DNA of 64,000 nt from Dyella sp. RRB7 (GTDB lineage: Bacteria; Pseudomonadota; Gammaproteobacteria; Xanthomonadales; Rhodanobacteraceae): contig NZ_JAKWJS010000006.1 of the NCBI RefSeq assembly GCF_022761115.1, positions 1 through 64,000 of the forward strand, written 5' to 3'. This document shows positions 34,252 through 48,045 of the stretch, piece by piece. A model generated the notes under the pieces. The model saw nothing but the letters and a program-made list of their open reading frames with translations. It ran no database searches and was not told the origin of the DNA. A program made the translations under genes and the position numbers. How positions within the stretch are numbered: position 1 is the first letter of the stretch; each line of letters starts with the position of its first letter.

Positions 34252-35466
34252 TCAATCCTTGCGTCGCGGCAGGTTGCCGGCGTAGTTGGCGCGCGGGCGA
34301 ATGAGTCCGCCGTAGTCCTGTTGTTCCAGTGCGTGGGCGAGCCAGCCAGCCATGCGTCCCGCGGCGAACAGCGACAAGGCGGCATCGGTGCCCAGTTCGT
34401 ACAGCGAGGCGATCGCGGCGAGGGCAAAGTCGAGGCTGGGTTCGCGGCCGCTGCATTCCTTCACGGCGTCGATCAGCTGGCGGATGCGCGCCAGACCGGG
34501 GCGTCGCGGACGTATCTCATCGAGCATCGCCAACAGCAGCGCCGCGCGCGGATCGCCCTCCGGATACAGCGGATGGCCGAAGGCGGGCAGTTCGTCGCCA
34601 CGACGCAGGCGATCCCGTACGTGGTCGGCGAGGCGGCGCTCGCGCAACGCCTGCTGGATGAACGCATGTGCGCGTGCGGCCGCCCCGCCATGTTGTGGCC
34701 CTGACAGCGCCGCCAATCCCGCGCCCACCGCCGCGTGCAGGCCAGCGCCGGTGGAGGCCGCCACGCGCGTGGCGAAGGCCGAGGCATTGAGTTCGTGATC
34801 CGCGCACAGCACCAGCGTGCTTCGCACCAGCGCGGCGAACGCCGCATCGCCACGATGCCAGCCATCGGCCATCAGGCGATGGACCGGGCGCCGGTCAGGG
34901 CGTGTGGCGCACAGCAGGGCGGCCGTTTGCCGCAGCAGCTGGGCCGCGCATTCGCGGCGCTGGACGGCGTCCATGCCGTGGATGAAGGGGCTGGACAGCC
35001 CCAGTAGCGGCAACGCCGCCATCGTGCGTTCCAGTGGTGGCAGGCCGCGTTGTCGCAACAGAAGCGCGACCGGGGCTGGCCATTGGCTGGGCGGCGCGTT
35101 GGCGAACGGGTCGACATTGCCGTCCCATAGCAGCCGGGCCACGTCTTCCAGGCTGGCGCCGTCGCGCGCGAGTGCGATGGCGGATTCGCCACGGTAGTAG
35201 TGTCCTTGCGGGCGGATCAGCGAGATGCGCGTCTCCAGCACCGGCAGGCCCCAGGTGAGGCTGTGCGCGGCGCCCTGGGCCGCGCCTCGCCCGGCCTGTC
35301 GCCGTTCGATCAGGCGCTCGATGTCGTCAGCCCGGTACTCGCGGCTGCGTCCGTCGGCGCCGGGACGCGAGTCGAGCTTTCCCCGGCTGACGTAGGCGTA
35401 CAGCGTGGCAGCACTTACCCCGAGGCGGGTGGCGGCTTCGCGGGCGGATAAATAGTCGACGCGCAT
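34252..35466 (-). CDS. Citrate-synthase-like protein with N-terminal DNA-binding domain
   Basis: 404 residues. Residues 1-60 form a MerR/excisionase-type helix-turn-helix (LSAREAATRLGVSAATLYAYVSRGKL, REYRADDIERLIERR). About 75-400 is a citrate-synthase fold. The residues matching the catalytic set are all kept: His224 (CADHELNAS), His259 (GPQHGGA), His298 (AFGHPLYPEGDPRA) and Asp346 (SLDFALA). Encoded divergently from prpB with palindromes in between. Inference: a propionyl-CoA/methylcitrate-responsive regulator or a regulated second methylcitrate synthase. Such fusions are known from databases, but their role is little described. Confidence 0.8.
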   Translation of the reverse strand: MRVDYLSAREAATRLGVSAATLYAYVSRGKLDSRPGADGRSREYRADDIERLIERRQAGRGAAQGAAHSLTWGLPVLETRISLIRPQGHYYRGESAIALARDGASLEDVARLLWDGNVDPFANAPPSQWPAPVALLLRQRGLPPLERTMAALPLLGLSSPFIHGMDAVQRRECAAQLLRQTAALLCATRPDRRPVHRLMADGWHRGDAAFAALVRSTLVLCADHELNASAFATRVAASTGAGLHAAVGAGLAALSGPQHGGAAARAHAFIQQALRERRLADHVRDRLRRGDELPAFGHPLYPEGDPRAALLLAMLDEIRPRRPGLARIRQLIDAVKECSGREPSLDFALAAIASLYELGTDAALSLFAAGRMAGWLAHALEQQDYGGLIRPRANYAGNLPRRKD

Positions 35467-35607: not shown

Positions 35608-36495
35608 ATGTCCCTACCCGAATCTGCCGGCACGCGCTTCCGCGCCGCCGTCGCCGCCGAAAAGCCCCTCCAGGTGATGGGCGCCATCACCGCCTACGCC
35701 GGCCTGATGGCCAAGCGCGTGGGCTACAAGGCCCTGTATCTCTCCGGCGGCGGCGTCGCCGCCAACTCGCTGGGCATGCCGGACCTCGGCATCTCCACCA
35801 TGGAAGACGTGCTCACCGATGCGCGTCGCATCGTGGACGCCACCCAGATGCCGTTGCTGGTGGATATCGATACCGGTTGGGGCGGCGCCTTCAACATTGG
35901 TCGCACCATCCGTTCGTTCATCAACGTGGGCGTGGCCGCGGTGCACATCGAGGATCAGGTCGGCCAGAAGCGTTGCGGCCACCGTCCGGGCAAGGAAGTG
36001 GTGGCCAAGGACGAGATGGTCGACCGCGTGAAGGCCGCCGTCGATGCCCGCACCGATCCCGGTTTCGTCATCATGGCGCGTACCGACGCCGCCGCGGTGG
36101 AAGGCATCGACGCGGCCATCGACCGTGCCTGCGCCTATGTCGAGGCGGGCGCCGACATGATCTTCCCCGAGGCGATGAAGACGCTGGACGACTACCGTCG
36201 TTTCAAGGCGGCGGTGAAAGTGCCGATCCTGGCCAACCTCACCGAGTTCGGTTCCACGCCGTTCTTCACCACCGACGAGCTGCGCGACGCCAACGTGGAC
36301 ATTGCGCTGTATTGCTGCGGCGCCTATCGCGCCATGAACAAGGCAGCGCTGAACTTCTACGAGACGGTGCGTCGCGAGGGCACGCAGAAGAACATCATCG
36401 ATACGCTGCAGACGCGCGAACAGCTCTACGACTTCCTCGGCTATCACGCCTACGAGGACAAGCTCGACAGTCTGTTCGCCAACAAGAAAGCCTGA
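35608..36495 (+). CDS. prpB: 2-methylisocitrate lyase
   Basis: 295 residues. Cleaves 2-methylisocitrate to pyruvate and succinate. The isocitrate-lyase superfamily signature KRCGHRPGK is present, with metal-binding [11 protein letters not shown] and the Glu in [13 protein letters not shown]. The alternative assignment as carboxyphosphonoenolpyruvate mutase is unlikely given prpC 79 bp downstream. Shine-Dalgarno GGAG precedes the ATG. Confidence 0.95.
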
Positions 36496-36574
36496 GCACC
36501 CCACACCCATGGGCCGGTCCGAGGCATCGTCGCCGCGGGCGGCCACAGTCGCATGCATTGAGGAGACCTATCCG

Positions 36575-37720
36575 ATGAGCGAGCAAACCCTTCCCAAGCC
36601 CAAGAAATCCGTCGCCCTGTCCGGCGTGGCCGCGGGCAACACCGCGCTGTGCACGGTGGGGCGCAGCGGCAACGACCTGCATTACCGCGGTTACGACATC
36701 CACGACCTGGCGGCCAAGGGTTGCTTCGAGGAAGTGGCCTACCTGCTGGTCCACGGGGTACTGCCCAACTGGGCCGAGCTCAACGCCTACCGCGCCAGGC
36801 TCAAGCGTCTGCGTGGCCTGCCGGCGCCGGTAAAGAGCGCACTGGAGCTGCTGCCGGCCGCCACGCATCCGATGGACGTGTTGCGCACGGGCTGCTCGGT
36901 GCTCGGCACCGTGCTGCCGGAGAAGGACGACCACAACGTCACCGGCGCACGCGACATCGCCGATCGCCTGATGGCCAGCTTCGGCTCCATGCTGCTGTAC
37001 TGGTTTCACTTCAGCCACAACGGCAAGCGCATCGAGACCGAGACCGACGACGAGTCGATCGCCGGCCATTTCCTGAACCTGCTGCATGGCAAGAAGCCGA
37101 GCGAGCTGCACGCGCACTCGCTGGACAAGTCGCTGATCCTGTACGCCGAGCACGAGTTCAACGCGTCCACCTTTACCGCCCGCGTCATCGCCGGTACCGG
37201 TTCGGACATCTACTCGGCCATCACCGGCGCCATCGGTGCGTTGCGTGGCCCCAAGCACGGCGGCGCCAACGAAGTGGCGATGGAGATCATCGCACGCTAT
37301 CGCAACGCGGCGGAGGCAGAGGCGGATATCCGCGCCCGCGTGGAGCGCAAGGAGATCATCATCGGCTTCGGCCACCCGGTCTACACCGTGTCCGATCCGC
37401 GCAACGAGATCATCAAGGAAGTGTCGCGCAAGCTGTGCACCGAAGGCGGCAACCCGACGCTGTTCGACGTGTCGGAGAAGATCGAGAAGCTGATGTGGGA
37501 ACAGAAGAAAATGTTCCCCAACCTCGACTGGTTCTCGGCCAGCGCGTATCACATGATGGGCGTGCCGACGGCCATGTTCACCCCGTTGTTCGTGATCGCC
37601 CGCACTTCCGGCTGGAGCGCGCACGTGATCGAGCAGCGCGAGGACGGCAAGATCATCCGTCCCAGCGCCAACTACACCGGTCCCGAAGACCAGGCCTACG
37701 TGCCGATCGAAAAGCGCTGA
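36575..37720 (+). CDS. prpC: 2-methylcitrate synthase
   Basis: 381 residues. Condenses propionyl-CoA with oxaloacetate. The catalytic residues lie in [31 protein letters not shown] and [11 protein letters not shown]. The last motif (Trp/Phe-Ser-Ala) and the short N-terminus distinguish it from hexameric citrate synthase GltA. Operon with prpB; a terminator follows. Confidence 0.95.
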
Positions 37721-37772: not shown

Positions 37773-38167
37773 GCTTCTTTCGTTACGGTTCAGGACCCTG
37801 TACGACATTGCTATCGTTTTGTGTGCAGGGGTGTAACGCCGGTGATACACACGATCCGCTGCGAGAGGTGGCATGCGGAATATGCCGCAACCCGCTGATT
37901 GAGTGACTCATGGCTTTTCGTTTATGGATCCCTACGCCGCCGCATGTTCAGCCGTGGGTGTAACAGCCATGAATCACCTGGGGATTGGGCAAGCCTGGCC
38001 AAAGCCAGACTCACTGTGCATGAGTCCATTCAAACGGCTGATTTCATGGACATCACGGGTGAGCACATAGTTACCGGCGAGGTGGCACGCATGTTGCGAT
38101 CACCACGTGCTGGGTCGGCAACACCAGTACCACAGGGGGTCACCGCGTCGTTCCAGGAGTAATGACT
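37773..38167 (+). other. Long leader region before the secretion cluster
   Basis: About 395 bp with no supported gene. An open frame at 37899-38162 has no signal peptide, domain or ribosome-binding site and I treat it as chance. The length suggests a complex promoter for the Gly-rich subunit; I could not pick out a convincing sigma-70 or sigma-54 site by eye. Confidence 0.5.
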
Positions 38168-39154
38168 ATGCGTAAGACTCTAATAGCTACCGCGATCGTG
38201 CTGGGGCTGGGTTTGACTCTCCCCGCATTTGCGGACGACAACACTTCTCATGGCACCAGCAATCTCACTGATTCAAGAACCAACACCAATACCAACTCCA
38301 GTACGCATACCAATACCAACTCGAGTACGCATACCAAGACCTTGACGGATGCGCTGAACTCGGGTGAATCCGATGCAACCGGGCAGGGCAGCGCGGCCGC
38401 CAACAACGGCGGTTCGGCCAGCGCCAATGTATCCGACGCGTTCAACAAGGACATCGCGATCGCCAATAGCGATCTCTCCGGCTATGTAACCAACGTGACC
38501 GTGTCCGGTATCGGCAACGCGGCAACCAATAACGGCGCAGCCAGTGGCGGTCGCGGCGCCGGCGGCGGCAAGGGCATTGGCGGCACGGCCATCGGCGGCT
38601 TTGGCGGCAGTGGCGGCGATGGCGGCGACGCTTTTTCGCATAGTGGCAAGGCCGGCGGATCGGGCGCGGCCTCGGGTGACGCGGGTGCTCTCAGTGCGTC
38701 GCTGGGCGGCTTCTCCAATGGCGGCGACTCCGGTGACGCCAGCAGCCACGCGCACAATCACGGCACAGGTACGGCTAGTGGTGGCACCAACAGTTCGGGC
38801 GCCGGCGGCGAATCGACCGGCGGATCGGGTGGTGCCGGCACCTCGACGGGCACCAGCGGCTATGCAAGCGCGACTGGCGGAACCAGTGGCGAGTCCACGG
38901 CTGATGCCGGTGGTGGCGGCGCTGGTGGCTCAGGCACCGGCGGTACCGGCGGCGAAGGTTCGGGCGGCGCGGGTGGCGCAGGCGGCGCGGGCGGCACGGC
39001 TTATGCCAACGCTGGCAACTTCGATATGTCCAACCAGATGAACGGTTCCGCTGCGGCAGCGGCGGGTGTCTCGATCCTTGCCCAGAACAGCGGTGCGGCA
39101 TCGCTGGTACAGCAGAGTGTGAACGTTCAGGCCAACCTGAACTTCTCGCATTAA
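38168..39154 (+). CDS. Exported Gly/Ser/Ala-rich repeat protein, candidate amyloid or adhesin subunit
   Basis: 328 residues. Sec signal 1-22 (LIATAIVLGLGLTLPAFA). Then a Thr/Asn/Ser stretch with a perfect tandem octapeptide TNTNSSTH (40-47, 48-55), a region ANVSDAFNKDIAIANSDLSGYVTNVTVSG (about 87-114), some 160 residues of Gly-Ala-Ser-rich repeats without cysteine, and a C-terminal segment SILAQNSGAASLVQQSVNVQANL. Composition, export signal and the following C39-peptidase and barrel genes point to a surface polymer subunit like FapC. I start at the second ATG because AGGAG is 8 bp before it; the first ATG would be 2 bp away. Not recognisably homologous to FapC along its length. Confidence 0.65.
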   Translation: MRKTLIATAIVLGLGLTLPAFADDNTSHGTSNLTDSRTNTNTNSSTHTNTNSSTHTKTLTDALNSGESDATGQGSAAANNGGSASANVSDAFNKDIAIANSDLSGYVTNVTVSGIGNAATNNGAASGGRGAGGGKGIGGTAIGGFGGSGGDGGDAFSHSGKAGGSGAASGDAGALSASLGGFSNGGDSGDASSHAHNHGTGTASGGTNSSGAGGESTGGSGGAGTSTGTSGYASATGGTSGESTADAGGGGAGGSGTGGTGGEGSGGAGGAGGAGGTAYANAGNFDMSNQMNGSAAAAAGVSILAQNSGAASLVQQSVNVQANLNFSH

Positions 39155-39168
39155 GTGATGGTAGCGAG

Positions 39169-39198
39169 GCACGACGGAGCGCTCGCGCTCCGTCGTGC
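39169..39198 (+). terminator. Strong intercistronic hairpin after the Gly-rich gene
   Basis: 13-bp perfect stem (GCACGACGGAGCG and complement) with a 4-base loop, no T run. More likely a partial terminator or 3'-end stabiliser than a full stop, since the downstream gene begins 50 bp later on the same strand. Confidence 0.6.
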
Positions 39199-39248
39199 TC
39201 CGTCACACCCGGACACACTCGTACCGTGAGTAATGCTTCCTGGGAGAC

Positions 39249-39677
39249 ATGGCCGTGCGAACCCTTCGTTTGGTGCTTGGCTGGTCCGCGTTGTGCGTGG
39301 CGGCGATACCTGCATGCCTGCATGCAGAAGATGCAGGTATTCCACCCTCTTATATGGTCACGGGTGCCGACTCGCCGATCGCGGTTTATGTGGCGGCGGT
39401 GCGGAACGATGGCGTGAGCGAGAGCGGCGATCTCGGCCAGCGCGTCGATAGCGCTGCCTTGGCCGACATGAGCGGCGGCAGTGAACTGGTGGTGCAGAAC
39501 ACGTCGCTCAGCGGCACCGTCGGCAACGACAGTGCAAGCCACGTCTATTCCGGCGACAACCTGATCACGGGTGGCTCCTTTGCCGGCGAGGCCGGTATTC
39601 CAACGGTGATCCAGAACTCCGGCAGCAACGTGTTGATCCAGAGCGCCACCGTACTGAACGTCCAGCTCAAGCCATGA
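39249..39677 (+). CDS. Exported small protein with double-glycine motif, Fap-cluster companion
   Basis: 142 residues. Signal peptide about 1-26 (LVLGWSALCVAAIPACLHA). A C39-type processing motif VDSAALADMSGG at 66-77 (hydrophobic at -12, -7 and -4, Gly-Gly at -2/-1), then VYSGDNLITGGSF and the closing IPTVIQNSGSNVLIQSATVLNVQ. Both features recur in the protein at 40373. Overlaps the C39 peptidase gene by four bases (ATGA). Position suggests a FapB- or FapA-like role, but no direct homology was recognised. Confidence 0.65.
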   Translation: MAVRTLRLVLGWSALCVAAIPACLHAEDAGIPPSYMVTGADSPIAVYVAAVRNDGVSESGDLGQRVDSAALADMSGGSELVVQNTSLSGTVGNDSASHVYSGDNLITGGSFAGEAGIPTVIQNSGSNVLIQSATVLNVQLKP

Positions 39678-40360
39678 AAAAGTTCGCAGCGCTGCTGATC
39701 ATGATCGCGGCGCTGCCGCAAGGGGGATATGCCTCCACGCCGGTGAGCGTGGTCGGCAATGGGACCGGCTATTACACGGTGCATCTGACCAGCCTCAAGG
39801 AGGCTCGCTACAAGAGCACCATTCACCAGCGATACGACTTCAGCTGCGGCTCGGCGGCGGTCGCCACGTTGCTGACCTACCAGTACGGCTATCCGGTGAA
39901 CGAACAGGTCGCATTCGAGCAGATGTACACGCATGGCGACCGGGCCAAGATCAACAAGGAAGGTTTTTCCCTGCTCGATATCAAGCGTTTTTTGGATGCC
40001 AACGGCTTTATTGCTGATGGTTTCAAGGTGCCCATCGACAAGCTGGAGCAGGAGAACCTGCCGGCCATCGTGCTGATCGACGAGCGTGGCTACCACCACT
40101 TCGTGGTGGTCAAAGGACTGCGCAATGACCGCGTGCTGGTCGGTGACCCGGCGCGCGGCACGCGCGTGATGTCGCGCGACAAATTCATGTCGGTGTGGAC
40201 CAACGGGCTCGTGTTCGTGATCCACAACCGGCGCAACCTGGCGGTTTTCAATAGCCCCAATGACTGGAAAGTGGCGCCTTCGGCGCCGATCAGTACCGGT
40301 GTCGATCGCGGCAATCTCTTCAACACCGTAATGCCCAAGAAGGGGCCGGATGACTTGTGA
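39674..40360 (+). CDS. Exported C39-family cysteine peptidase, FapD-like
   Basis: 228 residues with a signal peptide (FAALLIMIAALPQGGYA), so it acts in the periplasm instead of as part of an ABC transporter. The full C39 catalytic set is visible: Gln52 and Cys58 in HQRYDFSCGSAAVATLL, His142 in GYHHFVVVKGL and Asp158 in LVGDPARGT. Stand-alone C39 proteins with this layout are FapD of functional-amyloid operons, which is needed for amyloid export in Pseudomonas. Neighbouring proteins with Gly-Gly motifs are its likely substrates. Confidence 0.85.
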   Translation: MKKFAALLIMIAALPQGGYASTPVSVVGNGTGYYTVHLTSLKEARYKSTIHQRYDFSCGSAAVATLLTYQYGYPVNEQVAFEQMYTHGDRAKINKEGFSLLDIKRFLDANGFIADGFKVPIDKLEQENLPAIVLIDERGYHHFVVVKGLRNDRVLVGDPARGTRVMSRDKFMSVWTNGLVFVIHNRRNLAVFNSPNDWKVAPSAPISTGVDRGNLFNTVMPKKGPDDL

Positions 40361-40372
40361 GGGCATGGCGTG

Positions 40373-40957
40373 ATGAAACCGATCACACGAATCGTTTGCC
40401 TTGGTGTCGCGCTTCTTGCGAGTGGCCCGGGCGCTTATACGGCGGTTGCGCAGGACGGTACGCCGCCAGCAGCGCCGGCTGCTGCGATACAGGCGCCCGC
40501 TGTTGCCGCTGCCACGGTCGTCGGCAACGGCAACGACATCGCCGACTGGACGCCGGTCAGTCAGGAAACACTGGATCGGACACGCGGCGGGTTCGACATG
40601 GGTAACGGGCTCGTAGCCTCGTTTGGCATCGACCGCGCCGTCTACGTGAATGGCAACCTGGTGACGTCGACCAGTTTCAACGTTCCCGACATCGCACATA
40701 TGACGTCGGCACAGGCATCGGCCATGTCCACCGCGCTCAACTCGGTGTCACTTACGCAGATCGGGCCCAACAATACGTTTGATCCATCGGCACTAGGCCA
40801 AACGACGACTGGCACGGTGATACAGAACACGTTAAACAACCAGGACATCAAGAGCATCACCACGCTGAATGCGACGGTCAACACGCTCAACGCGTTCCGT
40901 CAGGTGAACTTCCAGGACGCCTTGCAACAGACACAACTGCAGTCCCTGGGGCACTAG
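40373..40957 (+). CDS. Exported protein with double-glycine motif, FapE-position
   Basis: 194 residues. Signal peptide about 1-27 (IVCLGVALLASGPGAYTAVAQ), Ala/Pro linker, then VSQETLDRTRGG at 62-73, a close match to the C39 leader pattern, followed by FDMGNGLVASFGIDRAVYVNGNLVTSTSF and a C-terminal TVIQNTLNNQDIKSITTLNATVN. The VY-x-x-x-NL-V/I-T motif and the QN motif match the protein at 39249, so the two look like distant paralogues. A GTG one codon upstream is an alternative start. Sits between the C39 and barrel genes as fapE does. Confidence 0.65.
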   Translation: MKPITRIVCLGVALLASGPGAYTAVAQDGTPPAAPAAAIQAPAVAAATVVGNGNDIADWTPVSQETLDRTRGGFDMGNGLVASFGIDRAVYVNGNLVTSTSFNVPDIAHMTSAQASAMSTALNSVSLTQIGPNNTFDPSALGQTTTGTVIQNTLNNQDIKSITTLNATVNTLNAFRQVNFQDALQQTQLQSLGH

Positions 40958-41063
40958 CTGCCATGGGGGTATCACCAGGGGCGGTGGCATGTCACCGACG
41001 CGCCGTGGTCGATCACTACGGCGCGTTCGTATCTGCGAATCGCACAAAAAGTCATGGGGAAGC

Positions 41064-42518
41064 ATGATGCGACACTTGGCATGGCGATATCTCTGTTCGG
41101 CAGGATGCGCAGGGCTGGTGATGCTTGGCCTTCCTGTCGCTGCCCAGCAAACCACGACGCCGCAGAGTGGCGGAACAACCGTACCGCCCACCGCGGCGTC
41201 GACCTCCGGCGCGCCCGCGGATGCTTCGCCGGACGACGTGCGAAAGCGAGTGGCGGAGCAGGGTGAACGCATCGAGGCGATGCGCAGCCAGATCAGCGCG
41301 CAGATCGAGCAGCTCGATGCCATGAAGCGTGCCCTGGCCGAGCAGGAGGCTGACTACCAGTCGCTGCGGCATGCCGTGGGCATGGACGTGCTGGACAAGC
41401 AGCGCGCCGGCAATATCGCGGCAGGCGGTCCTGGTGCATCGGCGCTGCCCATGCCGGCGTCCCAGGCGGTGGCGTCGAACGCACCTACCGATCAGTCCAC
41501 GCAACAACCCGTGGGTGAGGCGCCCAAGCAGGACACGCGGCCTCCCGAAGTGGCGCCCATCTTCCAGCAGCCCGGTGTGCTCACGCCCAAGGGCAAGCTG
41601 ATCATCGAGCCGGCCTATCAATTCGGCTACTCCTCGGTCGACCGCGTGGCGCTGGTCGGCTATACGGTGATCCCCGCCATCCTGATCGGCCTGATTGACG
41701 CGCGGCAGGTGAAGGACACCACCCAGATCGGCTGGCTGACCGGACGTTACGGCATTACCAACCGGCTGGAGGTGGAAGTGCGCATTCCGTATGTCTATGC
41801 GCACCAGGACACCATCAGCCGCGAGATCTTCACGGGCACGGCCACCGACAACGCCTTTGGCTCCAGCGGCCACGGCCTGGGTGATATCGAGGCGACCGCT
41901 CGCTACCAGCTCAATGTAGGCGGCCCCGACAAGGCGTTTTATGTCGGCTGGCTGCGCGTGAAGTCGCGCACGGGCACCGATCCGTTCCAGGTCACCACCG
42001 ATTGCGTCCAGCGCTGCGTGGAGAACGTGATCGATGAAGTCGATCTCTCGGCCACCGGCACCGGCCTGCCATTGCAGCAGCCGACCGGCTCGGGCTTCTG
42101 GTCGATCCAGCCGGGCCTGACCTGGCTGTATCCGTCCGACCCGGTGGTCTTCTTCGGCAACGTCAGCTATCTGTACAACGTGGCGCGCGACAACGTGAGC
42201 CGCAAGATTCTCCTGGGGGGAACGGAGTTCCTGGGCAAGGTCAAGGAAGGTGACGTCGCTGATGTCAGCGTGGGCATTGGCCTGTCGCTCAACGAGAAGG
42301 CCTCGATCAGTATCGGTTACGACCAGAGCTTCGTCGGCATCACCAAGCAGAACAATCAAACCGTGCCGGGCTCGGTCAAGACCGTGCTCGGCACCTTGCT
42401 GATTGGCGGCTCATGGCGCCTCAGCGACAAGCGCACGCTCAACTTCACCTTGGGCGTCGGCGTGACCCGCGATACGCCTGACGCCACGGTGACGATACGT
42501 GTGCCGATGATGTTCTAG
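41064..42518 (+). CDS. Outer-membrane barrel with coiled-coil N-terminus, FapF-like exporter
   Basis: 484 residues. Signal peptide 1-28, then a helical coiled-coil segment (about 57-108, DDVRKRVAEQGERIEAMRSQISAQIEQLDAMKRALAEQEA is its core, key heptads RV/I/I/L), a Pro/Gln-rich linker to about 170, and a beta-barrel with alternating strands ending in Phe (VTIRVPMMF). This is the layout of FapF, the trimeric amyloid-export pore whose N-terminal coiled coil and plug gate the channel. The barrel resembles the transporter family often annotated beside C39 peptidases. It overlaps the convergent TerC gene by four bases. Confidence 0.7.
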   Translation: MMRHLAWRYLCSAGCAGLVMLGLPVAAQQTTTPQSGGTTVPPTAASTSGAPADASPDDVRKRVAEQGERIEAMRSQISAQIEQLDAMKRALAEQEADYQSLRHAVGMDVLDKQRAGNIAAGGPGASALPMPASQAVASNAPTDQSTQQPVGEAPKQDTRPPEVAPIFQQPGVLTPKGKLIIEPAYQFGYSSVDRVALVGYTVIPAILIGLIDARQVKDTTQIGWLTGRYGITNRLEVEVRIPYVYAHQDTISREIFTGTATDNAFGSSGHGLGDIEATARYQLNVGGPDKAFYVGWLRVKSRTGTDPFQVTTDCVQRCVENVIDEVDLSATGTGLPLQQPTGSGFWSIQPGLTWLYPSDPVVFFGNVSYLYNVARDNVSRKILLGGTEFLGKVKEGDVADVSVGIGLSLNEKASISIGYDQSFVGITKQNNQTVPGSVKTVLGTLLIGGSWRLSDKRTLNFTLGVGVTRDTPDATVTIRVPMMF

Positions 42519-43210
42519 GGATGCTCCCGCGCTTCCTGCCGTTTGGCGCGCCGGCGCTTCATCAGCCAGCCGCCCAGGCAGACGCCGACGACCAGCAGCG
42601 CGTCGAGCGTATAGGTGGCCCAGTCGTTGGCATCGAACCAGGGCGATAGCCAGTGATCGTGCGTGATCATCCGGGCCGAGGTCCATGCGATGGCGGCCGC
42701 GCCGATATAAACGATGATCGGGAAACGCTCGATCATCCGCAGGATCAGCGACGAGCCCCACACCACCAGCGGCACGCTGATCGCCAGGCCAATGATCACC
42801 AGCAGCATATGGCCCTTGGCCGCGCCCGCGATGGCGAGCACGTTGTCCAGGCCCATCAGGGCATCGGCGACGACAATGGTGCGCATGGCCGCCCAGAAGT
42901 CGCCGGCGGCATCGACCTCGTGCGAAGGCTGCGATTCCGACTGCAACAGTTTCCAGGCGATGGGCAACAGCAACAGGCCGCCCACCAGCATCAGGCCGGG
43001 CAGCTCAAGCAGGTACACCACCACACCCGTCAGCAGCAGGCGTACGGCGACGGCGCCCACGGTGCCCCACAGCACGGCCTTCTTCTGGATGCGGCGAGGG
43101 AGGTTGCGTGCGGCGAGCGCGATCACGATGGCGTTATCGCCTGCAAGCACGAGATCGAGCAGGACGATGGCCAGCAGGCTGGAGAGAAAGTCGGTACCAG
43201 TGAGTTCCAT
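42515..43210 (-). CDS. TerC/YjbE-family integral membrane protein
   Basis: 231 residues with about seven membrane helices. Family motifs are LVLAGDNAIVIALAAR in the first helix pair and VADALMGLDNVLAIAGAA in the middle, both with conserved acidic residues. Relatives handle manganese or metal homeostasis or follow tellurite genes; YjbE-type proteins are often under a manganese riboswitch, but I see no yybP-ykoY structure upstream. The 322 bp to the right, up to prpF, holds no supported gene. Confidence 0.88.
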   Translation of the reverse strand: MELTGTDFLSSLLAIVLLDLVLAGDNAIVIALAARNLPRRIQKKAVLWGTVGAVAVRLLLTGVVVYLLELPGLMLVGGLLLLPIAWKLLQSESQPSHEVDAAGDFWAAMRTIVVADALMGLDNVLAIAGAAKGHMLLVIIGLAISVPLVVWGSSLILRMIERFPIIVYIGAAAIAWTSARMITHDHWLSPWFDANDWATYTLDALLVVGVCLGGWLMKRRRAKRQEAREHP

Positions 43211-43532: not shown

Positions 43533-44717
43533 TCAGCCCGCAGGTACACGCACCCAGCCTTCCATCAGCACGCGCGCGCTTCGGCTCATGACTGCCTTGG
43601 TGACGGTCCACGTACCGTCTACCAGCGCCGCCGCAGCGCCCACCCGCAGCGTGCCCGACGGATGGCCAAAGCGCACCGCCTGACGCTCGCCGCCGCCGGC
43701 CGCAAGATTCACCAGGGTGCCCGGAATCGCCGCCGCGGTACCGATGGCCACCGCCGCCGTCCCCATCATGGCGTGGTGCAGCTTGCCCATCGACATCGCG
43801 CGCACGAGCAGGTCGACATCGCCGGCCGCCACCGGCTTGCCGCTCGACGCGACATAGCCGGCCGGCTTGGCGACGAAGGCCACCTTGGGCGTGTGCTGGC
43901 GGGTGGCGATCCCATCGAGCGACTTGATCAAACCCATGCGCAACGCGCCGTGTGCACGGATGGTCTCGAACATCGCCAGCGCCTTGGCATCGCCATTGAT
44001 CGCGTCCTGCAGTTCGGTGCCGGTGTAACCGATCGCCGAGGCCTCGACGAAGATCGTGGGGATGCCGGCGTTGATCATGGTCGCCTTGAGCGTGCCGACG
44101 CCCGGCACTTCCAGGTCGTCGACGAGATGACCGGTCGGGAACATCGCGCCGCCGGCGCCTTCCTCTTCGGCCGCCGGGTCCATGAACTCCAGCTGCACTT
44201 CGGCCGCCGGAAAGGTCACGCCGTCCAGCTCGAAATCGCCGGTTTCCTGCACGGCGCCGTTGGTCATCGGCACGTGCGCAATGATGGTCTTGCCGATGTT
44301 GGCCTGCCAGATGCGCACGGTGGCGATACCGTCATGCGGCACGCGCGCCGGGTCGACCAGGCCGCCAGCGATGGCGAACGGACCGACCGCCGCCGAGAGG
44401 TTGCCGCAGTTGCCGCTCCAGTCGACGAAGGCCTTGTCGATCGCTACCTGGCCGAACAGGTAATCCACGTCGTGGTCTGGCCGGCTGCTCTTGGACACGA
44501 TCACCGTCTTGCTGGTGCTGGAGGTGGCGCCGCCCATGCCGTCGATCTGCTTGCCATAGGGGTCGGGGCTGCCGATCACCCGCTGCAGCAGGGCATCGCG
44601 TGCGGGGCCCGGTACCTGGACCGCCTCGGGCAGGTCCTGCAGGCGGAAGAACACGCCCTTGCTGGTGCCGCCGCGAAGGTAGGTCGCGGGAATGCGGATC
44701 TGGGGAAGCTGTGCCAT
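43533..44717 (-). CDS. prpF: PrpF-family isomerase (2-methylaconitate cis-trans isomerase)
   Basis: 394 residues. Works with AcnD: converts the trans-2-methylaconitate made by AcnD to the cis form. Typical start of the family, QIRIPATYLRGGTSKGVFF, with the active-site lysine region SKGVF and a cysteine/serine-type NCGNLSAAVGPFAI site. The ATG at 44717 is chosen; the open frame extends a further 15 codons. Downstream of acnD on the same strand, separated by 228 bp with a REP-like hairpin. Confidence 0.92.
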   Translation of the reverse strand: MAQLPQIRIPATYLRGGTSKGVFFRLQDLPEAVQVPGPARDALLQRVIGSPDPYGKQIDGMGGATSSTSKTVIVSKSSRPDHDVDYLFGQVAIDKAFVDWSGNCGNLSAAVGPFAIAGGLVDPARVPHDGIATVRIWQANIGKTIIAHVPMTNGAVQETGDFELDGVTFPAAEVQLEFMDPAAEEEGAGGAMFPTGHLVDDLEVPGVGTLKATMINAGIPTIFVEASAIGYTGTELQDAINGDAKALAMFETIRAHGALRMGLIKSLDGIATRQHTPKVAFVAKPAGYVASSGKPVAAGDVDLLVRAMSMGKLHHAMMGTAAVAIGTAAAIPGTLVNLAAGGGERQAVRFGHPSGTLRVGAAAALVDGTWTVTKAVMSRSARVLMEGWVRVPAG

Positions 44718-44829
44718 GTGTGTTGCCCTGTGTGACTGGACCGCGCCCACGCCATTGCGCATGTGGGATCACGAACGCAAGGTGGTGCTACTTGGATATT
44801 CGAATGACCCGTCATCCCTGCAAGGAAAC

Positions 44830-44915
44830 CGTCATTCCCGCGAAAGCGGGAATCCAGGACTTTCACGCCGACCAAAAGCGATAGGTACCGGATTGCTGCT
44901 TTCGCGGGAGTGACG
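44830..44915. repeat. REP-like doublet between acnD and prpF
   Basis: CGTCATTCCCGCGAAAGC at 44830-44847 and its inverted partner GCTTTCGCGGGAGTGACG at 44898-44915, 86 bp in all. The left unit is itself a hairpin (ATTCCCGC-GAAA-GCGGGAAT, 44834-44853). A paired arrangement like that of REP doublets or REPIN-type elements. It is inside an apparent operon. Confidence 0.75.
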
Positions 44916-44945
44916 AGCAGGTTTGCGAAGTCCCACGAGCTGCCA

Positions 44946-47555
44946 TCACGCCGCTTGCGAGGCCTCGAGGAAGTCCTGCGCGAAGCGCTGCAGCACACCG
45001 CCCGCCGCGTAGATCGACACTTCCTCGGCGGTATCCAGGCGGCAGGTTACCGGCACCTCGACGCGTTCGCCGTTCTTGCGATGGATGACCAGCGTGAGGT
45101 CCGCGCGCGGCGTGCGCGTGCCGACCACGTCGAAGGTCTCGGTGCCGTCGATGCCCAGCGTCTTGCGGTCGGTGCCGGGCTTGAACTCCAGTGGCAGCAC
45201 GCCCATGCCGATCAGGTTGGTGCGGTGGATGCGCTCGAAGCCTTCGGCCACGATCGCTTCCACGCCCGCCAGGCGCACGCCCTTCGCCGCCCAGTCGCGC
45301 GAGGAGCCCTGGCCATAGTCGGCGCCGGCGATCACGATCAACGGCTGCTTGTGGTCCATGTAGGTCTCGATCGCTTCCCACATGCGCATGACCTTGCCTT
45401 CCGGCTCCACGCGGGCCAGCGAGCCCTTCTTCACCTCGCCGTCGACCACCGCCATCTCGTTGAGCAGGGTGGGGTTGGCGAAGGTGGCCCGCTGCGCGGT
45501 GAGGTGGTCGCCGCGATGGGTCGCGTACGAATTGAAGTCCTCTTCCGGCAGGCCCATCTTGGCGAGGTACTCGCCTGCCGCGCTGTCGGGCAGGATGGCG
45601 TTCGACGGCGACAGGTGGTCGGTGGTGATGTTGTCGCCAAGCACTGCCAGCGGACGCATGCCCTTGAGCGTGCGTTCGCCCGCGAGGGCGCCTTCCCAGT
45701 AGGGCGGACGGCGGATGTAGGTGCTCTGCGCACGCCAGTCGTACAGCGGCGCGGCGCTGGTGCCGATGCTGCCCGTGCGAGCGAACATCGGGTCGTAGAC
45801 CTTGCGGAACTGCTCGGGCTTCACGCTGGAGGACACGATGGCGTCGATCTCCTCATCGGTGGGCCAGATATCCTTGAGCGTCACCGGCTGGCCATCGGCG
45901 TCGAGGCCAAGCACGTCCTTCTCGATGTCGAAGCGGATGGTGCCGGCGATGGCGTAAGCCACCACCAGCGGCGGCGAGGCCAGGAAGGCCTGCTTGGCAT
46001 ACGGATGGATGCGGCCGTCGAAGTTGCGGTTGCCGGACAGCACGGCGGTGGCGTACAGGTCGCGATCGATGATTTCCTGCTGGATCGCCGGATCGAGCGC
46101 GCCGGACATGCCGTTGCAGGTGGTGCACGCGAACGCGACGATGCCGAAGCCGAGCTGCTCCAGCTCCGGCAGCAGGTTCGCCTCCTTCAGGTACAGCTCC
46201 ACCGCCTTGGACCCGGGGGCGAGCGAACTCTTCACCCACGGCTTGCGGGTGAGGCCGCGCGCGTTCGCATTGCGCGCGAGCAGGGCCGCCGCGATCACGT
46301 TGCGCGGATTGCTGGTATTGGTGCAACTGGTGATGGCGGCGATGATCACCGCGCCATCGGGCATCTGGCCGGGTTGTTCCTCCCACTGGCCGGCGATGCC
46401 GCGCGCGGCGAGATCGGCGGTAGGCAGGCGCTTGTGCGGGTTGGACGGGCCAGCCATGTTGCGCACGACCGAGGACAGGTCGAACGTCAGCGTGCGCTCG
46501 TACTGCGCAGCGGCAAGCGTGTCGGCCCACAGGCCGGCGGCCTTGGCGTAGGTTTCCACCAGCTTGACCTGCTCGTCGCTGCGGCCGGTGAGGCGCAGGT
46601 AGTCGATGGTCTGGTCGTCGATGAAGAACATCGCGGCGGTGGCGCCGTATTCGGGCGCCATGTTGGAGATGGTCGCGCGATCGCCCAGCGTCAGGCTGGC
46701 CGCGCCTTCGCCGCGGAATTCCAGGTACGCGCCGACCACTTTCTCCTTGCGCAGGAACTCGGTCAGCGCCAACACGATGTCGGTGGCGGTGATGCCGGGC
46801 CGGCGCTTGCCGGTGAGCTCGACGCCCACGATGTCGGGCAGGCGCATCCACGAGGCACGGCCAAGCATCACGTTCTCCGCTTCCAGGCCACCGACGCCGA
46901 TGGCGATCACGCCGAGCGCGTCCACGTGCGGCGTATGGCTGTCGGTGCCCACGCAGGTATCCGGATAGGCCACGCCCCTGCCTTGATCGTCGTGTTGCAC
47001 CTGAATCACCGGCGACATCTTCTCCAGATTGATCTGATGCATGATGCCGTTGCCCGGCGGGATCACGTCGACGTTCTCGAACGCCTTCTTGGTCCAGTTG
47101 ATGAAGTGGAAGCGATCCTCGTTGCGGCGATCCTCGATCGCGCGATTCTTCGCGAACGCATTCGGGTCGAAACCGCCGCACTCCACCGCCAGCGAGTGGT
47201 CGACGATCAGCTGCACCGGCACTACCGGGTTCACCTTGGCCGGGTCACCGCCGCGCTCGGCAATCGCGTCGCGCAGGCCAGCCAGGTCTACCAGCGCCGT
47301 CTGGCCGAGGATGTCATGGCAGACCACCCGCGCCGGGAACCAGGGGAAGTCGCGCTCGCGCTTGCGCTCGATGATCTGCTTGAGCGATTCGGTGAGGATC
47401 GCCGGATCACAACGGCGCACCAGGTTCTCGGCGAGCACGCGCGAAGTATAGGGCAGTGCGTCATAGGCGCCCGGCTGGATCGCCTCCACGGCTGCACGCG
47501 CATCGAAATAATCCAGCGACGTGCCGGGGAGGGATTGGCGGTAGACGGTATTCAT
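44946..47555 (-). CDS. acnD: 2-methylcitrate dehydratase, aconitase-like, Fe-S
   Basis: 869 residues. Iron-sulfur dehydratase that turns 2-methylcitrate into 2-methylaconitate (the trans form handled by PrpF). Aconitase signatures: cluster cysteines in VGTDSHTPHVDALGVI-adjacent and ITSCTNTSNPRN, FACTTCNGMSG segments, and the swivel domain AGADYGQGSSRDWAAKG. The ATG at 47555 is chosen because MNTVYRQSLPGTSLDYFDARAAV is the usual AcnD opening; the open frame continues 137 codons upstream with Arg/Pro-rich shadow-like sequence. Confidence 0.94.
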   Translation of the reverse strand: MNTVYRQSLPGTSLDYFDARAAVEAIQPGAYDALPYTSRVLAENLVRRCDPAILTESLKQIIERKRERDFPWFPARVVCHDILGQTALVDLAGLRDAIAERGGDPAKVNPVVPVQLIVDHSLAVECGGFDPNAFAKNRAIEDRRNEDRFHFINWTKKAFENVDVIPPGNGIMHQINLEKMSPVIQVQHDDQGRGVAYPDTCVGTDSHTPHVDALGVIAIGVGGLEAENVMLGRASWMRLPDIVGVELTGKRRPGITATDIVLALTEFLRKEKVVGAYLEFRGEGAASLTLGDRATISNMAPEYGATAAMFFIDDQTIDYLRLTGRSDEQVKLVETYAKAAGLWADTLAAAQYERTLTFDLSSVVRNMAGPSNPHKRLPTADLAARGIAGQWEEQPGQMPDGAVIIAAITSCTNTSNPRNVIAAALLARNANARGLTRKPWVKSSLAPGSKAVELYLKEANLLPELEQLGFGIVAFACTTCNGMSGALDPAIQQEIIDRDLYATAVLSGNRNFDGRIHPYAKQAFLASPPLVVAYAIAGTIRFDIEKDVLGLDADGQPVTLKDIWPTDEEIDAIVSSSVKPEQFRKVYDPMFARTGSIGTSAAPLYDWRAQSTYIRRPPYWEGALAGERTLKGMRPLAVLGDNITTDHLSPSNAILPDSAAGEYLAKMGLPEEDFNSYATHRGDHLTAQRATFANPTLLNEMAVVDGEVKKGSLARVEPEGKVMRMWEAIETYMDHKQPLIVIAGADYGQGSSRDWAAKGVRLAGVEAIVAEGFERIHRTNLIGMGVLPLEFKPGTDRKTLGIDGTETFDVVGTRTPRADLTLVIHRKNGERVEVPVTCRLDTAEEVSIYAAGGVLQRFAQDFLEASQAA

Positions 47556-48045
47556 AGATATGCAGGAACCCTGGAGATAGACGCCCGGCTGACCGCAGGC
47601 CGACACTCGGCGTGCGTCCGCCGCTGTTCGATCGGCACCTGCAGCCAGTCTCGTGGGCCATGGCCGCGCACGCCGGGGCGGATGCAAGTGGCACCCCGCG
47701 CGTGTCCCAATAGCTGAACTCCCGGTGCCGGCGACCAAGTCGAAAATTTCACCTGTGACAAGGCACGATCGGGAAATCGCACTATCAATCCTTTCATTGT
47801 AACGCAGCCACCTTGGCGCAACCCGACCGGGGCCTGCATTCGCTTTTTCGCGATTCCATCGGGCGCCAACCTCGAGGCGCGGCAAAGCGTCGCATGGCGC
47901 GTTGAATATCGACTTTGGTCCAGTGCCATCGCAGCGGAGCGACTCGACCGTGTCGCGGAGCTGCAAAATGGCGCAAACGCTGTCGCGGTCGGGGCATCCG
48001 TCCGACGATCAAGGCAGCACCCTTCCGTAGCCGCGAGATCTCTCC
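47556..48045. promoter_or_regulatory. Divergent promoter region acnD / prpD
   Basis: 490 bp between divergent acnD and prpD, no supported gene. It contains CAAT-CCTTTC-ATTG (47786-47799), a short inverted repeat loosely like the TTGATC palindromes near prpB. The match is weak and I only note it. Confidence 0.4.

Follow-up and report, generated by a model that had tools for sequence, protein, structure and literature searches.

The window analyzed here is a 64,000-nucleotide stretch of Dyella sp. RRB7 (GCF_022761115.1, contig NZ_JAKWJS010000006.1, positions 1–64,000 of the forward strand). Positions 38162–42518 hold five open reading frames (ORFs), P1 to P5, which we compared with the functional amyloid (Fap) export system of Pseudomonas. 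A preliminary description had placed five same-strand genes of a Fap-like amyloid export cluster here, and all of these ORFs were found in place on one strand. Leader positions in the features below are numbered back from the predicted cut.

38162–39154 (alternative start 38168), + strand: P1, exported Gly-rich protein, 330 amino acids from 38162
39169–39198, + strand: stem-loop of 13 base pairs with a 4-nucleotide loop, directly 3' of P1
39249–39677, + strand: P2, small exported paralogue of P4 with a double-glycine leader and a C-terminal module common with P1
39444–39479, + strand: P2 leader, −12 to −1, VDSAALADMSGG; predicted C39 cut after Gly77
39674–40360, + strand: P3, exported C39 cysteine peptidase, FapD homologue
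40370 (GTG) or 40373 (ATG)–40957, + strand: P4, exported FapE homologue with a double-glycine leader
40556–40591, + strand: P4 leader, −12 to −1, VSQETLDRTRGG; predicted C39 cut after the second Gly
41064–42518, + strand: P5, outer-membrane barrel with an N-terminal coiled coil, FapF homologue
41376–41411, + strand: motif of P5 that resembles a leader, where the coiled coil ends; VGMDVLDKQRAG here and RGG in other relatives

The P2 and P3 reading frames overlap by ATGA. The longest ORF for P5 runs from 40989, and its probable start is the ATGATG at 41064/41067, preceded by GGGGA. Export signal peptides of the five proteins were read by eye from the sequences, without a prediction program.

P3 and P5 were matched to FapD and FapF. 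P3 hit the Pfam C39 family (PF03412) at an expectation value (E) of 2.7e-22, and its best NCBIfam match was FapD (E 1.2e-41; 142 bits, curated equivalog cut-off 330). P5 hit NCBIfam FapF at E 1.3e-41 (143 bits, curated cut-off 700), and its residues 179–509 matched the sequences of FapF crystal structures (best E 4.6e-25). Profile–profile comparison with hhalign paired P3 with FapD at E 7e-54 and P5 with FapF at E 2.6e-56; all hhalign E-values given here are for single pairs, with 42 pairs in the whole-protein set and 15 in the partial set. Two of the refuting tests named in the preliminary description, for the C39 protein against FapD and for the barrel against FapF, therefore did not refute it. 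Its assignment of Gln52, Cys58, His142 and Asp158 of P3 also held, all four being invariant in 21/21 aligned orthologues. FapF has 12 strands, a helical plug and a trimeric periplasmic coiled coil. In P5 the N-terminus appeared coiled-coil-like by eye, with Pfam coiled-coil matches that were weak and below cut-offs.

Searches of Pfam and NCBIfam returned no family for P1, P2 or P4 at E ≤1, and the NCBIfam FapE model was among those without a match. Profile comparison nevertheless aligned P4 with FapE, at E 5.5e-8 for whole profiles and 2.9e-7 for the N-terminal halves. P2 aligned with P4 over whole profiles (E 7.7e-11), N-terminal halves (E 1.6e-5) and C-terminal modules (E 9.1e-5), and the C-terminal module of P1 aligned with that of P2 (E 1.3e-6). 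By profile, the N-terminal half of P4 is homologous to FapE, and P4 and P2 are paralogues. The D-E-F order is therefore homologous to that of Fap, more than analogous. The order and domain logic proposed earlier stand on this firmer footing, while the accompanying claim that the companion proteins differ from FapE needs correction for the N-terminal half of P4. The identification of P2 as FapA (E 0.0061 in one hhalign comparison) was not accepted. This was the best FapA match among the five proteins, and NCBIfam gave none; fapA is also absent from some fap operons (PubMed Central (PMC) article PMC3792158). FapE itself had no match among PDB sequences.

A double-glycine leader is present in both P2 and P4. 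Gly-Gly and Leu at −7 were each present in 21/21 aligned orthologues of either protein. Position −12 was V/I/L in 18/21 P2 and Val in 20/21 P4 sequences, and position −4 was mixed. Apart from this mixed −4, both leaders show the pattern expected for C39 substrates (hydrophobic −4/−7/−12, GG/GA/GS ending). The AlphaFold2 model of P4 placed a helix at residues 64–70, directly ahead of the GG, and the parts after the GG are ~65 (P2) and ~121 (P4) amino acids long. For the C39 domain LahT150, Val −4, Leu −7 and Leu −12 are described as occupying a groove, with change of Leu −7 to Lys or Asp strongly harmful, Glu −8 replaceable and V-4T fully processed; the ComA leader consensus is given as L(−12)-x3-E(−8)-L(−7) (PMC6363468). 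The window's P4, with its Thr at −4, agrees with the processing of V-4T.

A related motif occupies the homologous place in classical FapE. All 20 fap operons compared showed hydrophobic −15/−12, Leu/Met −7, Met/Leu −4, Arg −3, Gly −2 and Arg −1, and 17 of the 20 had Glu −8. Class-wide, an RGR or RGK ending was found in 11/11 classical loci with a FapE frame; the set comprised 13 classical barrels, of which L085 and L102 show no FapE frame in the stretch covered. Phylum-wide, the ending was [RHT]G[RK] in 21/22 FapE places, the 22nd being a fragment short of the N-terminus. Seven members of the phylum-wide set scored above the NCBIfam FapE cut-off and three repeat genomes of the other sets, so that the three leader sets (20, 11 and 21) overlap partly. 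Classical FapE thus fails the strict C39 leader ending because of Arg/Lys at −1, despite its −12, −7 and Gly −2.

Among wider relatives, P4-like proteins ended RGG in 19/20 genomes, the window's included, the miss being a short fragment. P2-like proteins of two wider lineages end GR beside a P4 ending GG, and both endings therefore occur within one operon. Three wider relatives (L088, L092 and L216) have a P2-like frame in which the leader motif was not seen. In a regular-expression control, the motif fell at one column in 20/20 FapE, 20/21 P4 and 18/21 P2 sequences; outside these three families, P5 and FapB (considered below), the maximum was 4 (FapC, of 20). Many columns of the C39 domain split the two groups (54 Tyr/Thr, 115 Asp/Arg, others); none was tied to −1 and they were not used as specificity residues. 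The GG or G[R/K] leader suggests a predicted cut site for the FapD/FapE pair that is new here. Searches of open-licence PMC literature found neither this FapE leader motif and site nor this branch. Separately, classical FapA (L054–L073) carries a conserved ELSDxExAxL resembling a C39 leader, without a conserved GG; this was left as an idea.

The cluster is widely distributed. A barrel match was found in 108/197 genomes of the same family. By hand count, 80 genomes had an orthologue (57–100% identity), 40 a distant barrel (24–34%) and 12 both. Twenty loci of each kind were fetched from family genomes. The orthologous loci carried P1-P2-P3-P4-P5 in order in 20/20 cases. At the 20 distant-barrel loci, phmmer with the window proteins found P3 and P5 alone. 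These loci are the classical system: a search seeded from one of them recovered homologues of all six proteins, FapA to FapF, in 20/20. The six proteins of the seed locus match the NCBIfam FapA–FapF models, all below curated cut-offs. Of the 12 genomes that hold both barrel kinds, seven were among the fetched 20, and in these seven the second locus was a fapABCDEF operon. The presence of true fapABCDEF in the same family, and sometimes in the same genome, marks the cluster as a sister branch and not a decayed Fap. In locus L063, genome G107 was seen to have two neighbouring classical-type C39/barrel sets.

Named genomes gave a similar picture. Of 361 relatives, 80 loci were kept, and 73 had the five genes in order on one strand. 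The exceptions were three loci (L165, L172 and L181) in which P1–P4 lie on the other strand and converge with the barrel gene, two with P2–P4 arranged likewise and no P1 in the stretch covered (L175 and L176), one that starts near a contig edge (L167) and one in which P1 and P2 run into each other across an N stretch (L112). Co-occurrence of the five genes in other genomes, a test set by the preliminary description, was thus seen in both locus sets. Genera among the relatives include Dyella, Rhodanobacter, Fulvimonas, Frateuria, Luteibacter, Pinirhizobacter, Mizugakiibacter, Lysobacter, Luteimonas and Pseudoxanthomonas, and further from Pandoraea, Cupriavidus, Burkholderia and Paraburkholderia. 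The P4 profile matched 55/299 genomes at order level and 14/398 at phylum level, the window's own counted in each. Plasmid records with related C39 genes were found in Cupriavidus, Croceicoccus, Polymorphobacter, Vibrio, Photobacterium and others, and the loci fetched also carry a barrel of the wider P5 clade.

A barrel tree of 73 rows separated a classical FapF clade (23 rows; Shimodaira–Hasegawa-like approximate likelihood ratio test (SH-aLRT) 95) from a clade of the P5 branch and its wider relatives (45 rows; SH-aLRT 98). The tree was built by a quick method and midpoint-rooted for drawing, and long branches were flagged for L083, L084, L095, L096, L097, L099, L101 and L213. As judged from sequence, the cluster is real, occurs widely and forms a sister branch of Fap-type export for which the searches made returned no earlier description. 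The separate branch proposed earlier stands; its confinement to Xanthomonadales does not, as it occurs in Burkholderiales too and has divergent relatives in Vibrionales and Sphingomonadales.

A long, covarying stem-loop follows P1. In the 90 nucleotides behind the gene, the longest stem had 12–17 pairs in 21/21 orthologues (mean 14.0; shuffled mean 8.3), in a search that permits G-T pairs and one mismatch and in which the longest stem is, in a few loci, a second hairpin further on. Stems of at least 12 pairs followed P2, P3, P4 and P5 in 6, 2, 2 and 1 of 21 loci, respectively, the comparison stretches after P2, P3 and P4 being mostly coding. In classical operons such stems were found in 5/20 cases after FapC, 6/20 after FapF and 0 or 1 after the others; the stretches after P5 and FapF are not mostly coding. 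Six Dyella copies, picked for the same loop length and register, showed 100% pairing with both-side changes in 4/12 pairs. Among 500 shuffles, none reached the covariation score and nine reached the number of both-side-change pairs. In a wider set, 88/100 P1 genes had at least 12 stem pairs and 96 at least 10, a count that is not independent because the two locus sets partly come from the same genomes. A repetitive extragenic palindromic (REP)-like element was rejected, since the stem-loop occurs at one place in the genome even when up to 3 mismatches are allowed. No intrinsic terminator was called at the hairpin, which has no T-run behind the stem. A promoter scan found nothing, and an Rfam search of the stem-loop gave no match. 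We propose that it is an mRNA element that would favour P1 over the downstream genes.

Taken together, the homologies, leaders, operon and stem-loop make it likely that this is a sister-branch export system in which P3 trims P2 and P4 for export of P1 through P5. From them we infer cleavage, export order, the role of the stem-loop and fibre formation. All five proteins would enter the periplasm through Sec signal peptides, as read from their sequences. P3 would recognize the short helical leader (hydrophobic −12, Leu −7, GG) on P2 and P4, and perhaps on the P5 coiled coil, and would cut after the GG in the periplasm. Processed P2 and P4 may then license or open the FapF-type pore and stay as minor, cell-anchoring or nucleating parts. 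P1 would be the bulk subunit, Gly-rich and favoured by the stem-loop that follows its gene. It would exit through P5 and, by means of the C-terminal module that it has in common with P2, assemble outside the cell as matrix or fibre.

Published work on Fap bears on this model. The catalytic Cys of FapD is required for FapC secretion, which C38A abolishes, and the FapE N-terminus was missing among mass-spectrometry peptides (PMC5557850). The same article calls the FapD target unclear, describes Fap proteins as lacking canonical C39 sequences and suggests FapE as the most likely substrate. A 2025 review names FapE and FapF as presumed substrates of FapD (PMC12822426), and FapF is reported to carry a double-glycine motif (PMC5135000). 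FapE and FapF have thus been suggested as FapD substrates before; the leader motif and its site were what the open-licence search did not return.

Several observations weigh against the model, and they concern the cargo, the adaptors and the leaders in turn. AlphaFold2 left P1 unfolded (predicted local distance difference test (pLDDT) 43.6), and hhalign of the P1 profile against FapA, FapB and FapC gave no match and no detectable Fap repeats. P1 as FapB or FapC was rejected for want of profile support. hhalign also gave no significant match of P2 or P4 to the FapB and FapC subunits, and NCBIfam found neither among the five proteins. In sequence terms, then, a D-E-F machine homologous to that of Fap is combined with a bulk cargo without detectable homology. 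The earlier view that the subunit does not resemble FapB/C is upheld by this result; the amyloid or adhesive-fibre cargo proposed with it is not, given the missing repeats and the unfolded model. Fibre formation by P1, and amyloid, are putative in our reading.

The cargo results suit the strongest rival, in which P1, instead of being a fibre subunit, is a Gly-rich adhesin or matrix protein that is soluble or coats the surface, and no amyloid is made. We regard this as less likely than not. It would account for the lack of FapB/C similarity, for the Gly-rich middle, which is very variable, and for the predicted disorder. The conserved C-terminal module of P1, common with P2 (E 1.3e-6), speaks against it. 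The C-terminus of P2 also aligns in register with the FapC repeat, yet at E 0.0074 among 15 comparisons this is not significant. P1 had one match in its own genome. As a separate observation, Paraburkholderia sp. C35 (L165, 9815–12291) carries two tandem P1 copies, with the long stem only after the copy adjoining P2.

For the adaptors, the C-terminal halves of P4 and FapE did not match (E 0.19), and P2 matched FapE weakly (E 0.00035 whole, 0.0032 N-terminal). The AlphaFold2 model of P4 was of moderate confidence (pLDDT 68.6), and Foldseek of this model against the PDB returned nothing at E ≤0.001. Some wider barrel relatives in other lineages (L214, L217 and L223) seem to be without the N-terminal coiled coil. 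For the leaders, position −4 of FapE is Gln in several sequences, and its Arg/Lys at −1 lies outside the GG/GA/GS endings named in the C39 literature consulted. The regular-expression motif also fell at one column in 11/21 P5 and 8/20 FapB sequences. The P5 matches sit at the end of the coiled coil (Leu −7 in 19/21, Arg −3 in 20/21, Gly −1 in 19/21), with Gly −2 in only 12/21 and Ala in 7/21; the window's P5 ends RAG. A figure legend in a 2023 docking paper has FapD modifying FapC (PMC10638192). Cleavage, export and fibres are themselves projected from sequence.

These leader findings bear on a second alternative, in which the leaders are docking or targeting sequences and P3 acts as a chaperone that joins P2, P4 and the P5 coiled coil without cutting. 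We consider this unlikely. The leader-like motif in P5, with Ala at −2 in those 7/21 sequences, and Arg/Lys at −1 in FapE would fit it, and non-cutting C39-like chaperone domains are mentioned in PMC5557850 and PMC6173800. Cutting is favoured by the invariant Gln, Cys, His and Asp of P3 (21/21), by the loss of FapC secretion in FapD C38A (PMC5557850) and by the invariant GG of P2 and P4. In a third alternative, leader removal would free P2 and P4 to act as bioactive peptides or proteins and not as fibre parts. This has been proposed for the Neisseria nap island, where small GG peptides are encoded together with a C39 peptidase and a FapF homologue (PMC11798529). For the present cluster we consider it very unlikely: the homology of P4 with FapE, described as a minor part of the Fap fibre (PMC5557850), the C-terminus that P2 has in common with P1, and the length of the parts after the GG (~65 and ~121 amino acids) speak against it. 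A decayed classical fap operon, which the shared D-E-F order and the fap operons of the same family might suggest, was rejected as having next to no chance, given two separate barrel clades, genes conserved across families and both barrel kinds in 12/197 family genomes (hand count).

By its defining features the cluster is not a Fap system; very probably it works like one. FapD-, FapE- and FapF-type proteins stand in the same D-E-F order in both, and P4 and FapE have leaders at homologous places, ending GG in P4 and G[R/K] in FapE. The cluster differs in that FapA, FapB and FapC are not among the five proteins, a Gly-rich P1 being present instead, and in the extra FapE-like paralogue P2 ahead of the C39 gene. 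The putative pilus system Fil of Acinetobacter is a weaker likeness, drawn from the FilB and FilC models: P3 matched the FilB C39 model at 119 bits and P5 the FilC model at 40 bits, compared with 142 and 143 for FapD and FapF. Neisseria nap (NapP C39, NapF FapF homologue, NapA–C) has by description the same C39 peptidase, FapF-type channel and GG leaders, but its cargo is small cationic bacteriocin-like peptides (PMC11798529). The C39 domains of ATP-binding cassette (ABC) transporters (ComA, PCAT1, LahT) belong to the same peptidase family and follow the same leader logic, whereas P3 stands alone without ABC transporter parts. For curli (type VIII), no Csg family turned up when the five proteins were scanned against Pfam and NCBIfam, with no search aimed at CsgG, CsgE or CsgF made.

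Co-localized fapD and fapF homologues are reported from five further phyla (PMC6173800), and the FapD and FapF models match two larger families (PMC3792158). We tentatively suggest, as a generalization with a little less than an even chance, that FapD–FapF export belongs to a broad class of outer-membrane secretion systems that work by leader processing. In this class a periplasmic C39 peptidase would cut a true double-glycine-type leader on FapE-family adaptors, ending GG here and G[R/K] in classical Fap; in some members it would also cut the pore, at its coiled-coil/plug junction, so that a single protease arms the adaptor and unlocks the channel. The bulk cargo (FapC, Gly-rich P1, others) would be interchangeable. 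The GG leaders at the FapE-homologous place point to one testable residue position for the FapD cut. The sister branch also suggests an export machine that serves different, glycine-rich cargo in many bacteria. Where visible, public annotation of such genes reads 'hypothetical protein', 'C39 family peptidase' or 'transporter'.

The cluster is flanked by 35608–37720 and 43533–47966, which look like a methylcitrate locus. We take the upstream genes to be prpB/prpC-like and the downstream genes, on the other strand, to be prpF-like and aconitase-like, all names being assigned by inspection of the sequences. A prpC relative lay near the cluster in 18/20 fetched family loci, which suggests vertical inheritance in the family. 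Beside prpB/prpC, 34252–35466 (− strand) presumably encodes a citrate-synthase-like protein whose N-terminus has a helix-turn-helix-like segment. Directly after the barrel gene, the convergent gene at 42515–43210 (− strand) presumably encodes a TerC-like membrane protein, a relative of which was present in 15/20 fetched family loci.

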